A DNA stretch of 64,000 bases, from positions 1 to 64,000 of the forward strand of contig NZ_FNBO01000002.1 in the NCBI RefSeq assembly GCF_900102375.1, in the 5' to 3' direction. Positions 43,633 through 51,277 of the stretch are shown here, in pieces. The notes under the pieces were generated by a model. It did no database searches. It saw only the letters and a list, made by a program, of their open reading frames with translations, and was not told where the DNA came from. The stretch comes from Halorubrum xinjiangense (GTDB taxonomy: Archaea; Halobacteriota; Halobacteria; Halobacteriales; Haloferacaceae). Made by a program: the position numbers and the translations under genes. Within the stretch, counting starts at the first letter, position 1; the number at the start of each line of letters is the position of its first letter.

Positions 43633-44340
43633 ATGGCTGACACGATCCTCGTGCCGCTCGAACTGCCGGACCCGGAACCGCTGTCACCGGTGCTGGTCGA
43701 GGACCTCGCGTCGCTTTCAGTCGTGATCCTCGGTCACTACGACCTCCCGGAGCAGACGCCGGCGAGCTCCGCGCGCGAACAGTTCGGCGAGGCGGCACAG
43801 GCGACCCTTGAAGAGGTCGCCGACGCGTTTTCCGACGCCGGTGCCTCCGTTCGAACGCGACTGGTGTTCGGGAAGGACCGTGCGGCCGCGATCCGGCAGA
43901 TCGCGGCGGAAGAAGACTGCGCGGCCGAGCTCGACCCCGCCCCGACGGAGGGGATCGCTCGGATACTCGTGCCGCTTCCGGACGTCGCCGAGCTCGACCG
44001 CCTCCCGACGTTCATCCGCATTCTGGCCGAAGACTCGACCCAGCAGATCACGCTGTTCCACGTCGTCGAGGGCGACGAGTCACGTGACCGCGGCGAGACG
44101 GTCGTCTCGGAGACTCGCGAGCGCCTCGTCGCGGACGGGTTCGACCCGGACGCGGTCGACACGCTGATAATCGAGGGCGACGAACACGACGAGGAGATCC
44201 TCGGGGTCGCGACGGACTACGACGCCGTCGTGATGTACGAGCCGGAGGCTCGCCTCGGAGACCGCGTGTTCGGCTCGCTGGCCGACCGGATCGCGGACGA
44301 GACGGGCGATCCGGTGATCCTCGTCAACCGAGACTACTGA
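43633..44340 (+). CDS. Universal stress protein (UspA) family
   Basis: The 235-residue protein has two USP-like regions. The first is ILVPLELPD at the N-terminus and the second begins ILVPLPDVAEL at about residue 115. It ends DRIADETGDPVILVN. The glycine loop for ATP binding is weak (DRVFGSLADRI), so ATP binding is uncertain. The neighbouring permease suggests a regulatory role on transport. A GTTTATTATT box at about 43600-43610 precedes the ATG. Confidence 0.75.
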   Translation: MADTILVPLELPDPEPLSPVLVEDLASLSVVILGHYDLPEQTPASSAREQFGEAAQATLEEVADAFSDAGASVRTRLVFGKDRAAAIRQIAAEEDCAAELDPAPTEGIARILVPLPDVAELDRLPTFIRILAEDSTQQITLFHVVEGDESRDRGETVVSETRERLVADGFDPDAVDTLIIEGDEHDEEILGVATDYDAVVMYEPEARLGDRVFGSLADRIADETGDPVILVNRDY

Positions 44341-45884: not shown

Positions 45885-46769
45885 CTACGAGTCGTCGCGT
45901 CGACCGGTCGCCTCGTCGGCGCCCTCGTCCGTCTCTTCGACCTTCTCGTCGACGGTTTCTTCGACCTTCTCGTCAACGGTCTCTTCGACTTTTTCGTCGA
46001 CGGTTTCCTCAACCTTCTCGTCGACGGTCTCCTCGACCTTTTCGCCGACGGTCTCTTCGACCTTTTCATCGACGGTTTCTTCGACCTTTTCGCCGACTGT
46101 CTCCTCGACCGTTTTCTCGACGGTCTCTTCGACCTTTTCACCGACAGTCTCCTCGACCGTCTTCTCGACCGTCTCTTCGACGGTTTCGCCGACCTTCTCC
46201 TCGACGGTTTCGCCGACCTTCTCCTCGACGGTCTTCTCGACGGTCTCGCCGACTGTCTCCTCGACTTTCCCCGTGACCTCCTCGCTCACGGTGTCGCTGA
46301 CGTCGTCGGCGACCTCGTTGACCTCCTTGTTGACGGTCTCGCCGACGGTCTTCTCGACTGTTTCGCCGACGCTCTTTTCGACCTCCTTGCTCACCGTCTC
46401 CTCGACCTTCTCGCCGACCGTCTCCTCGACGGTCTTTTCGACCTCCTTGCTCACTGTCTCGCCGACGGTCTTTTCGACCTCCTTGTTGACGGTCTCGCCC
46501 ACGGTCTTCTCGACCTCCTTGTCGACGGTCTCGCCGACGCTCTCCTCGACCTGTTTCCCGACCTGGTCCGCGACCTCGCGGGTCATCCAGTCCGGGTCGA
46601 ACCGGGCCATCTTCCAGACGACGTGGATCACGTACGAGGCGAACACCCCGATCCCGAACGCGATGGCGACGTTGTTCACCTGGAACGTCGCGATGAGCAC
46701 GATCGACAGGGCGATCAGCGCGCCGTATGCGATGTCGGTTATCGCGTCCACCCGCGCCGGACTTACCAT
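45885..46769 (-). CDS. Membrane-anchored protein with valine-tetrad repeat helix
   Basis: The 294-residue protein has two hydrophobic segments (about 10-30 and 32-52). About 220 residues of almost pure V-E-E-T / V-D-E-K type tetrads follow, with V every four residues and E, K, T, D or G between. The C-terminal part approaches exact octapeptide repeats. The four-residue period is unlike a heptad coiled coil. The gene-level repeat has diverged at synonymous sites, which suggests selection on the protein. I do not know a function, and a helical stalk or membrane-surface helix is an inference. The 45763-45884 gap is AT-richer and holds no gene. Confidence 0.75.
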   Translation of the reverse strand: MVSPARVDAITDIAYGALIALSIVLIATFQVNNVAIAFGIGVFASYVIHVVWKMARFDPDWMTREVADQVGKQVEESVGETVDKEVEKTVGETVNKEVEKTVGETVSKEVEKTVEETVGEKVEETVSKEVEKSVGETVEKTVGETVNKEVNEVADDVSDTVSEEVTGKVEETVGETVEKTVEEKVGETVEEKVGETVEETVEKTVEETVGEKVEETVEKTVEETVGEKVEETVDEKVEETVGEKVEETVDEKVEETVDEKVEETVDEKVEETVDEKVEETDEGADEATGRRDDS

Positions 46770-46962
46770 CCTCGCTCCCCCGTGTCGCCGCCGACCGCGT
46801 CCGACAGTCCACCAGTGACGTCTCCGTTCATACGTTTACGTTCCGAGCCCACGGCGTAAAAGCCTCCCATTGTCCCCGCCGCCGCCCGCCGCGGTCGACG
46901 CTTCCGAGTCGCTCCCGGCCCCGGAGCGCGGTCCTTTTACCCGGGATGACCGAACCGGTCGT

Positions 46963-48093
46963 ATGGACATCGAAGAGGGCGGACTCACCGTCTCCGTCCC
47001 GGAGGCCCGCGACGGCGCCAGCGAGGGCACCGGTGGCGGCGTCTTCTTCAACCCGACGCAGGAGCTGAACCGCGACGTGACGGTCGCGACGCTGCGCGCC
47101 TACCGCGACCGCGAACCCCGCGCCGCCTCGTACCTCGACGCGATGGCCGCCTCGGGGATCCGGGGCGTCCGCGCCGCGGCCGAGGGATATCGGGTCACCT
47201 GCGCCGACGTCGACGCCGACGCAGTCGACCTCGCCGCCGCCAACCTCGACGCCAACGGCCTCGACGGCGAGGCGGTCCACCGCGACGTGAACGCCCTGCT
47301 GTACGATGAGGGGCCGTTCGACGTCGTCGACCTCGACCCTTACGGCACGCCGATCCCCTTCGCGGACGCGGCGTTCGCGAACGGCCGCAACCTGATCTGC
47401 GTCACCGCCACCGACACCGCGCCGCTGTGCGGCGCGCACCTCAACAGCGGGATCCGCAAGTACGGCGCGGTCCCGCGAAACACCGACTACCACCCGGAGA
47501 TGGGGCTCCGGACGCTGATCTCTGCGCTCGTCCGGACCGCGGCGCGCTACGACAAGGCGGCGCGACCGATCCTCTCGCACGTCTCCCGGCACTACGCGCG
47601 GACCTACCTCGAGCTGGAGTCGGGCGCCCGCGCGGCCGACGACTGCCTCGAGGCCCTCGGGCACGTCGATCACTGCGAGGACTGCCTCTGGCGCGAGGCG
47701 ACGCCCGGACACATCGCCGACCCCGTCGCCGCCTGTCCCGAGTGCGGGAGCGACCGCGTCCTCACGGCGGGTCCGATCTGGCTCGGCCCGGTCGCGGACG
47801 CCGACTTCGCGCGCGCCGTCCGCCGCGAGGTGACCGACGACATGGGAGAGGCGAAGCGCGCGCGCAAGCTGCTCGGCACCGTCGCGCGCGAGCTCGACAC
47901 CCCGACGCACTACGACCAGCACCGGCTGTACAAGGAGTGGGGCGAGCCCGCCATCGGGATGGAAGAGTTCGTTGAGCGCGTGCGCGCGGCCGGCCACGAG
48001 GCGAGCCGCGCGCACTACCGCGGCACGGCCGTGAAGAGCACGGCGTCGATCCCCGAGATGCGCGAGGCGGTCCTCGGCGACGACGCGGACTGA
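46963..48093 (+). CDS. trm1: tRNA (guanine26-N2)-dimethyltransferase
   Basis: The 376-residue SAM-dependent enzyme methylates G26 of tRNA. Landmarks are [13 protein letters not shown] at the start, [16 protein letters not shown] (SAM-binding), [15 protein letters not shown] with the DPYG catalytic motif, and [18 protein letters not shown]...CPECG zinc ribbon occurs at about 245-275. ATG at 46963 follows CCTTTTACC at about 46933; the upstream in-frame residues look non-coding. Confidence 0.94.
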
Positions 48094-50672: not shown

Positions 50673-51120
50673 CTTATAAATAGCGGTGCGGCTGGCGCGT
50701 GCCGACGAGCGCCCGATAGGGCGCGATGTCGCACGCGCGAGGGAGTCGGTGGTCCGGAGCGAAGCGGAGGACCACCGACGAGGCTGGGGAGGCGTGAGGC
50801 TGCGGTCGCTGTGCGGTGCGGGGCGGGACTCAAAGGGGCAGTCGCGAGGGCGAAGCACGCCGCAGTAAGCACCGCAGCGAAGGAGCGGTAGCGACTGAGC
50901 GAGGCGCGCAGCAAGGCGCGCGAGCCGTCGCGGCTGGGGCTTTGGAGGAGTCTGCTGTCGATCCGTGATCAATCATTTATAAACGAGCGGTTGGGGCTTT
51001 GGAGGAGTCTGCTGTCGATCCGCGATCAATCATTTATAAACGAGCGGTTGGGGCTTTGGAGAAGTCTGCTGTCGATCCGCGATCAATCATTTATAAATGA
51101 GCGGCCGGGGCTTGGAGGCG
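50673..51120 (+). repeat. Dispersed structured repeat, copy C with expanded tail
   Basis: It starts at CTTATAAATA (50673-50682). The GCGCGTGC...GCACGCGC hairpin, the variable hairpin (arms 50745-50755 and 50769-50779), the conserved core and a long-range stem (50839-50847 with 50929-50937, including a G-U pair) follow in the same order as in copies A and B. The tail is expanded to three full 57-bp units and a partial fourth. The flanks 50560-50672 and 51121-51342 contain no gene that I can support. Confidence 0.75.
50931..51101 (+). repeat. Three 57-bp tail units, each ending in TTTATAAA
   Basis: The units at 50931-50987, 50988-51044 and 51045-51101 are nearly identical. Each begins GCGGYTGGGGCTTTGGAG, contains CTGCTGTCGATCCGYGATCA and ends ATCATTTATAAAYGA. 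The TATA-like ends resemble haloarchaeal promoters. Confidence 0.9.
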
Positions 51121-51277
51121 TCTACCGCACCGCTGTTGCTCACAGAGAGACAGCCGACAGCGACGCCGCTCGCACACGGGTACCCACCAATTCCAACCGC
51201 GTCTCACACCCGCCCCCGAAACCGATCGCTCGATGAGTTCACGCGCTCGTGGGGGGCGAAGCGCTGACACGCAAAAA

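Follow-up and report, generated by a model that had tools for sequence, protein, structure and literature searches.

The window analysed here, a stretch of 64,000 nucleotides of Halorubrum xinjiangense DNA, carries at 45885..46769 on the (-) strand an open reading frame of 294 amino acids with an ATG start, its coordinates being exactly those of the sequence-only reading; a similar start position is found in Halorubrum relatives. For residues 1-63 a membrane hairpin of two helices is predicted, which supports the view, taken in the sequence-only reading, that a membrane protein is encoded. Helix 1 (residues 4-28; 46686..46760, (-)) and helix 2 (residues 31-56; 46602..46679, (-)) were both predicted by AlphaFold2, with block pLDDT of 59-76 and 65-83, respectively. 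The hairpin ends in the signature WKMARFDPDWMT (residues 52-63; 46581..46616, (-)), situated at the end of helix 2. A valine tetrad array, delimited by valine count and containing DNA tandem units of 24, 36 and 60 bases, extends from V66 to V277 (45939..46574, (-)). Its four-residue spacing is interrupted once, by a slip of 3 residues that leads from V150 to V153 within the element VNKEVNEVADDV (46299..46334, (-)). The protein closes with an acidic C-terminal tail ending in RRDDS (residues 279-294; 45888..45935, (-)), and R-x-[DE]-S-like ends could be recognised by eye in many, not all, of 27 Halorubrum-type genes.

Valine had been described as recurring every fourth residue over about 220 residues, and this pattern was confirmed over a length of about 212. 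The array (residues 66-277) contains 54 valines, of whose 53 intervals 52 are exactly 4 and one, V150 to V153, is 3, giving a mean spacing of 3.98. The longest unbroken run of V/I/L/M at spacing 4 is 32, compared with a maximum of 6 in 2000 shuffles, and among the six-frame stop-to-stop ORFs of at least 60 aa elsewhere in the window a spacing-4 run never exceeded 6. By eye, the 12 longest other four-spaced runs in the fetched loci either lay antisense to family genes, as their shadows, or belonged to a second family, described below. The positions between the valines are mainly occupied by E, K, T, G, D, S and N, and the net charge of the array is -51 over 214 residues. Its valine codons (n=54) are GTC 48, GTG 4 and GTT 2; the claim that codons vary while amino acids do not is correct as far as the valine codons differ, and fails for the residues other than valine, which change between repeats. 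The antisense strand of the array (window 46273-46818, (+)) contains long open stretches, likewise in relatives. Read in this frame, it gives repeats of serine, threonine and valine that result from the codon pattern and could mislead gene finders.

In 12 divergent hairpin sequences the invariant positions were P4, D8, D12 and G16 of helix 1, A37, G39, G41, S45, Y46 and H49 of helix 2, and WKM, RFDP and WM of the signature (W52, K53, M54, R56, F57, D58, P59, W61 and M62). The window hairpin conforms to the family pattern PxRVDxxxDxxYG ... GxGxxxSYxxHxxWKMxRFDPxWMT, and the family hairpin profile matched the window gene with an E-value of 2.3e-36, the window hairpin itself being among the 12 rows of the profile. 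The mean number of K+R residues (n=125) was 1.17 before helix 1, 0.12 in the loop, where K or R was present in 15 of the 125 sequences, and 2.53 after helix 2. This charge placement weakly suggests that both hairpin ends are located in the cytoplasm, since the basic residues after helix 2 (2.53) are balanced by acidic ones (2.46).

The valine-tetrad hairpin proteins are a widespread uncharacterised family of membrane proteins of haloarchaea. Using a 78-residue query, the hairpin was found in 50 of the 52 genomes of the genus; in the order it is present in 176 of 293 sampled genomes and 60 of 87 genera. The hairpin profile gave 41 matches on 294 genomes of the phylum, every one inside the order. 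A scan of named genomes returned 190 encoding stretches, the best 80 of 190 belonging to haloarchaea such as Halorubrum, Natrialba, Natrinema, Natronococcus, Haloferax, Halobaculum, Halobellus and Halovenus or to halobacterial/archaeal bins. Absence is patchy: in the order and phylum samples, several genera belonging to the same taxonomic family as the window gave no match. Phage records searched with the family gave no match. Eight plasmid records carry a family gene, six of them with the annotation "hypothetical protein" and two without annotation.

Nothing above cut-off was found for hairpin or array in Pfam and NCBIfam, and sequence searches of the PDB gave no E-value < 0.012, the best match (E 0.012) being judged spurious. 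The best Pfam match of the array is DUF445 (PF04286), at residues 64-282 and with 32.4 bits versus a curated (gathering) cut-off of 33.8; it covers the array alone, not the hairpin. When DUF445 was searched in 10 genomes, the window's own included, no match passed the cut-off, while controls matched in E. coli, B. subtilis, S. elongatus and C. glutamicum. The weak array matches to DUF445, CdrL, GvpQ, SseC and others were judged compositional. No description of the hairpin family or of a 4.0-period helix was recognised in the titles and abstract starts of the papers listed from the open PMC literature, and a matching protein is unmentioned in the examined portions of PMC10869688.

A second membrane protein encoded in the same genome (G000:C11:5750-6232, L003/L197) has the hairpin GRQTQFHIELVYG...WEKMSIYERI followed by E/Q-type valine tetrads. 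Matches to it at E <=0.001 occur in 52 of 117 genomes of the order, the weak placeable ones belonging to the first family, and strong matches (E 6.1e-17 or better) occur at 23 places in 18 genomes. Comparison of the hairpins of both families, tetrads excluded, yielded an hhalign probability of 96.3 and an E-value of 1.6e-9 over 50 columns (8 vs 12 sequences). Like the window family, the second family (GRQTQFxIELLYG...WEKMSIYERI) thus has a homologous hairpin and then valine tetrads. It differs in having SIYER after helix 2 instead of RFDPxWMT, tetrads mostly with E/Q/A in place of T and a less strict spacing. In the 13 of 18 loci (L197-L214) where the pattern extracted a protein, 249 of 326 hydrophobic intervals were 4, and the residue before valine was mostly E, Q, A or D, not T. 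Since two homologous families share the hairpin and the valine at every fourth residue yet differ in the rest of the tail, the comparison argues that the 4-residue period is the functional property.

Conservation of phase and length was analysed in a set of 126 complete genes with distinct DNA, consisting of the window gene, 60 genes from L053-L112 and 65 from L113-L192; eight truncated genes, identical copies and loci L001-L052 were left out. Many rows of this set are closely related, and its counts are therefore not independent. Of the 4695 V/I/L/M intervals after the signature, 4120 were 4, 362 were 3 and 88 were 1, while the remaining ones included 63 intervals of 9 (62 of which span the RRP element), nine of 8 and five of 12. 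The 14 intervals of 8 or 12 are skipped valine sites, mostly filled by Ala. The entropy was 0.39 bit at the valine site and 2.29, 1.83 and 2.09 bits at the three sites that follow it. Met was found at the valine site 162 times, 124 of these being the constant Met of the WMT signature, and valine codons over the whole set were GTC 3023, GTG 522, GTT 238 and GTA 95. For the 27 Halorubrum-type genes, a hand count over tetrads 1 to 10, with the register taken from the signature, gave valine in 268 of 270 cells and Met in two, with 56 non-GTC valine codons, and the neighbouring columns change (e.g. E16/Q11, K16/E11, N13/D12). A 3-residue slip within NKEV-xxV-ADxV or near variants, at the same place as in the window gene, was counted by hand in 22 of these 27 genes, which are otherwise almost wholly four-spaced.

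The number of four-spaced intervals per protein ranged from 6 to 66, with a median of 35 (126 genes). The nearest named relative of the window gene (Halorubrum distributum, L113) shows 4 base differences over 180 positions of the hairpin region, and its length deviates by 28 residues. The DNA alignments of the 25 closest Halorubrum-type pairs contain 147 gaps. Their lengths in bases are divisible by 12 in 88 cases, by 3 but not by 12 in 40, and not by 3 in 19. The latter are accompanied by further gaps that restore the frame and are read as alignment ambiguity in repeats, with compensated local frameshifts being possible. The frame through the array is open in all complete genes. Free variation of length and phase in close relatives, with frameshifts, had been named beforehand as the mark of neutral repeat expansion. 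Length does vary freely, as the nearest named relative illustrates, but phase is kept, and even the slip is shared. The earlier suggestion that the pattern is selected holds for phase, given the valine retained in the 126 genes and in 268 of the 270 hand-counted cells and the homologous second family. Judged from these alignments, phase is under selection and length is not.

AlphaFold2 modelling of the window protein with a 47-sequence alignment gave a block pLDDT of 59-83 for the hairpin and a pTM of 0.23. The array was modelled mainly as helix, with block pLDDT of 34-51 and coil at 82-112, at 157-168 and from 257. For a 156-residue capped relative (27 sequences) one helix was predicted at 60-130, with block pLDDT of 46-57 and pTM of 0.28. 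These models favour, at low confidence, a helical array. On a helix propensity scale, the mean was 0.53 for the array and 0.44 for the hairpin; valine, threonine and glycine all have a low tendency to form helix. Beta structure was set aside by reasoning only, as alternate residues yield no amphipathic strand.

Charge pairs were counted in 19 representatives with hairpin identity <75%. Opposite charges at i, i+4 numbered 153 against 127.2 expected (14 representatives above, 3 below) and like charges 382 against 447.4. The excess of opposite charges at i, i+4 is modest (ratio 1.20; 1.24-1.28 in another count), and duplicated two-tetrad units may contribute to it. In that other count, opposite charges at i, i+7 were depleted. 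Adjacent glycine tetrads were observed 3 times in these representatives, compared with 20.5 expected, glycine tetrads lying mostly 2-4 tetrads apart. A role of glycine as a regular pi-bulge site was considered and set aside, since duplicated units can account for this spacing.

On a helix of 3.6 residues per turn, a period of 4.0 shifts the stripe by ~40 degrees per tetrad, which by arithmetic amounts to a full right-handed turn per 36 residues. The hydrophobic moment of the whole window array was 0.18 at 3.6, 0.07 at 3.667 and 1.38 at 4.0. The proposal that the pattern is neither a heptad nor an 11-residue one is supported. Over 18-residue pieces it was 1.32 at 3.6 and 1.95 at 4.0. With these moments at 3.6, a straight alpha helix would present hydrophobic faces that are local, not lasting. 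Perilipin- or LEA-type eleven-residue amphipathic membrane helices have an 11/3 periodicity and a straight hydrophobic face, a type from which the array departs by its moment at 3.667 versus that at 4.0.

The period was further analysed in the 109 genes with an uninterrupted series of 3- and 4-spacings at least 15 intervals long, the longest such stretch of each gene being used. The mean spacing was at least 3.95 in 58 of them, 3.8-3.95 in 46 and below 3.8 in 5, and in 21 the longest stretch was slip-free, over 22-66 intervals. According to the part of PMC4786415 used here, the accessible hydrophobic periodicity of coiled coils is ~3.33-3.9, with 4.0 outside. The window array (3.98) lies beyond this range; across the family, 58 of 109 genes are at 3.95 or above and 51 are below, and the periods run from inside the known coiled-coil range to past it. 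The right-handed winding of the stripe that had been deduced at 4.0 is arithmetically correct, although the range given in this part of PMC4786415 does not extend to a right-handed coiled coil of conventional type with a period of 4.0. Known right-handed coiled coils (hendecad 11/3, pentadecad 15/4, YadA 19/5) share with the family a long repetitive hydrophobic spacing on a presumed helix, and a spacing >3.63 winds right-handed. They differ from the family arrays, which keep 4.0 without slips for up to 66 intervals, outside the accessible range (PMC4786415, in part).

Single alpha-helix (SAH, ER/K) domains share with the array opposite charges at i, i+4 and, as proposed here, a long charged helix and a spacer role, and by analogy they would be its nearest functional model, the hydrophobic seam apart. 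They have no such seam and are rich in E/K/R (PMC5347031, in part), whereas the array has valine at one position in four, 54 four-spaced valines in all, and far more acidic than basic residues. Pairing of opposite charges at i, i+4 beyond composition is shared, modestly (153 vs 127.2, to which duplicated units may add). A designed SAH in 4 M NaCl retained 60% of its helicity at 100 mM (PMC5347031, in part), indicating that such helices can survive haloarchaeal salt.

Several explanations of the array were weighed against this evidence. In a neutral tandem-repeat expansion, a 12-base unit would grow and shrink, and sameness would stem from recent copying, not selection. The DNA tandem units of 24, 36 and 60 bases, the different lengths of close relatives and the 88 of 147 gaps in multiples of 12 fit such a process, and DNA tandem repeats are also present within second-family arrays (six loci tested), pointing to repeat turnover there too. 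However, copying would homogenise all four codons alike, and only valine is kept, with synonymous change; nearly all genomes of the genus (50 of 52) moreover have the hairpin gene, and the array frame is open in all complete genes. Neutral expansion is thus already largely refuted and was considered very unlikely. An amphipathic helix on the inner membrane surface, a role also put forward in the sequence-only reading, would suit a membrane anchor beside a repetitive striped helix and the local moment of 18-residue pieces (1.32 at 3.6 vs 1.95 at 4.0). Over the whole array, however, the stripe would wind round a straight helix (0.18 at 3.6 vs 1.38 at 4.0), and an array with a net charge of -51 would adjoin the lipids of haloarchaea, which are anionic. 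This role was not borne out and is highly improbable.

An acidic disordered brush, in which an unfolded charged tether uses its valines for weak multivalent contacts only, is in line with the low AlphaFold2 confidence, the beta-branched, glycine-containing composition and the free length. Such a tether needs composition, not exact phase, but phase is kept in the 126 genes and largely in the second family, and glycine tetrads stand side by side less often than expected (3 vs 20.5 in the 19 representatives), making a brush doubtful. An oligomeric stalk could be formed if chains bundled via their valines as a right-handed coiled coil, with a core hopping between V and the preceding T at a local period of ~3.75-3.8. 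T does precede V in 2414 of 4120 tetrads (126 genes), some members have periodic 3-residue slips, and the 46 of 109 genes that average 3.8-3.95, with 5 below, come near the value of 3.8 (19/5) that the used part of PMC4786415 cites for a stretch of YadA. The stalk is opposed by the 58 genes averaging at least 3.95, by the 21 that are slip-free over 22-66 intervals, by an expected upper limit of ~3.9 that places 4.0 outside the accessible range (PMC4786415, in part) and by the second family, with mostly E or Q before V, not T. It was regarded as a possible, though on the whole unlikely, arrangement.

The reading preferred here is a membrane-tethered, cytoplasmic, length-tolerant helical rod, stabilised by charge pairs and by contacts between valines at i and i+4, to which we give somewhat less than an even chance. 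A stalk or rod, in agreement with the rigid stalk proposed earlier, would be the best reading of the role. The rod builds on the observed sequence pattern, the selection on phase with the valine site kept, the tolerance of length, the distribution of the family and the homologous second family; the i, i+4 charge excess, the AlphaFold2 helix and the K+R placement also speak for it. From these we infer a helix, its topology, a valine ladder and a spacer role. Two membrane helices would anchor the protein with both ends cytoplasmic, and a long alpha helix would start behind the RFDPxWMT kink. Each valine could touch the valine four residues on, producing a ladder that winds right-handed with one turn per ~36 residues. 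This ladder would be assisted by the opposite charges at i, i+4 and would depend on the hydrophobic effect, which is stronger in molar KCl. As 12-base units and multiples are gained and lost, selection would retain one valine per tetrad. The rod could then serve as a length-tolerant spacer that separates the C-terminal end from the membrane hairpin and holds this end (the RRPR-like element or RR-D-S-like tail) away from the membrane. Against the rod stand the poor pLDDT and coil segments of the array, its helix-poor Val/Thr/Gly, the modest charge excess, the weak topology, the less strict second family (249 of 326 intervals being 4) and the known single alpha helices without a hydrophobic seam (PMC5347031, in part).

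A true 4.0-period helical assembly outside the accepted coiled-coil range could take the form of a mixed alpha/pi helix with a straight valine stripe, or of right-handed ropes wound tightly to a pitch of about 54 angstroms, with molar intracellular salt as the source of stability. We see only a small chance for it; if true, it would represent a new helical architecture and a membrane-linked scaffold throughout Halobacteria. Among helical repeat proteins, the valine-tetrad rod would be a new variant, and the chance that it is a new helical architecture is modest. The upper limit for coiled coils (just below 4 in the used part of PMC4786415) becomes testable on a natural protein, since a spacing of exactly 4.0 is maintained over as many as 66 intervals in a row and a majority of the long arrays examined stay near 4.0. 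The haloarchaeal family would also gain a concrete architecture of anchor, variable rod and end.

Concerning this end, an RRPR-like element (typically VDRRPR) was found in 66 of the 126 family genes, near the end or inside the array. At least five tetrads follow it in 11 of the 66 carriers, and VDRRPR lies within the array in L060-L069 and other relatives. None of the 27 Halorubrum-type genes has the element, and many of them end in an RR-D-S-like tail. The shortest full members have ~115-118 residues, several of them consisting of the hairpin, a few tetrads and the RRPR-like element.

The trm1 gene (Pfam TRM, window 46963-48093) neighbours the family gene in divergent orientation in 28 of the 29 Halorubrum-type loci L113-L141, the exception being L140, which ends 46 bases upstream of the family gene. 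Among 16 loci listed, no neighbour common across genera was seen by eye, and no neighbour points to a role. A UspA-type gene occurs in 45 of 103 mostly non-Halorubrum loci; in many Natrialbaceae-like loci (L143-L180) it is convergent and just downstream of the family gene, and in the window a Usp gene is located at 43633-44340, beyond a permease. Two family genes lie within ~5 kb of each other in some Natrialbaceae-type loci (L074, L112 and apparently L163 and L166), and the pairs of L074 and L112 are in opposite orientation, with one long and one short member. Outside the family gene, at window 50930-51123, a 57-base tandem unit is present in 3.4 copies with 93% matches.
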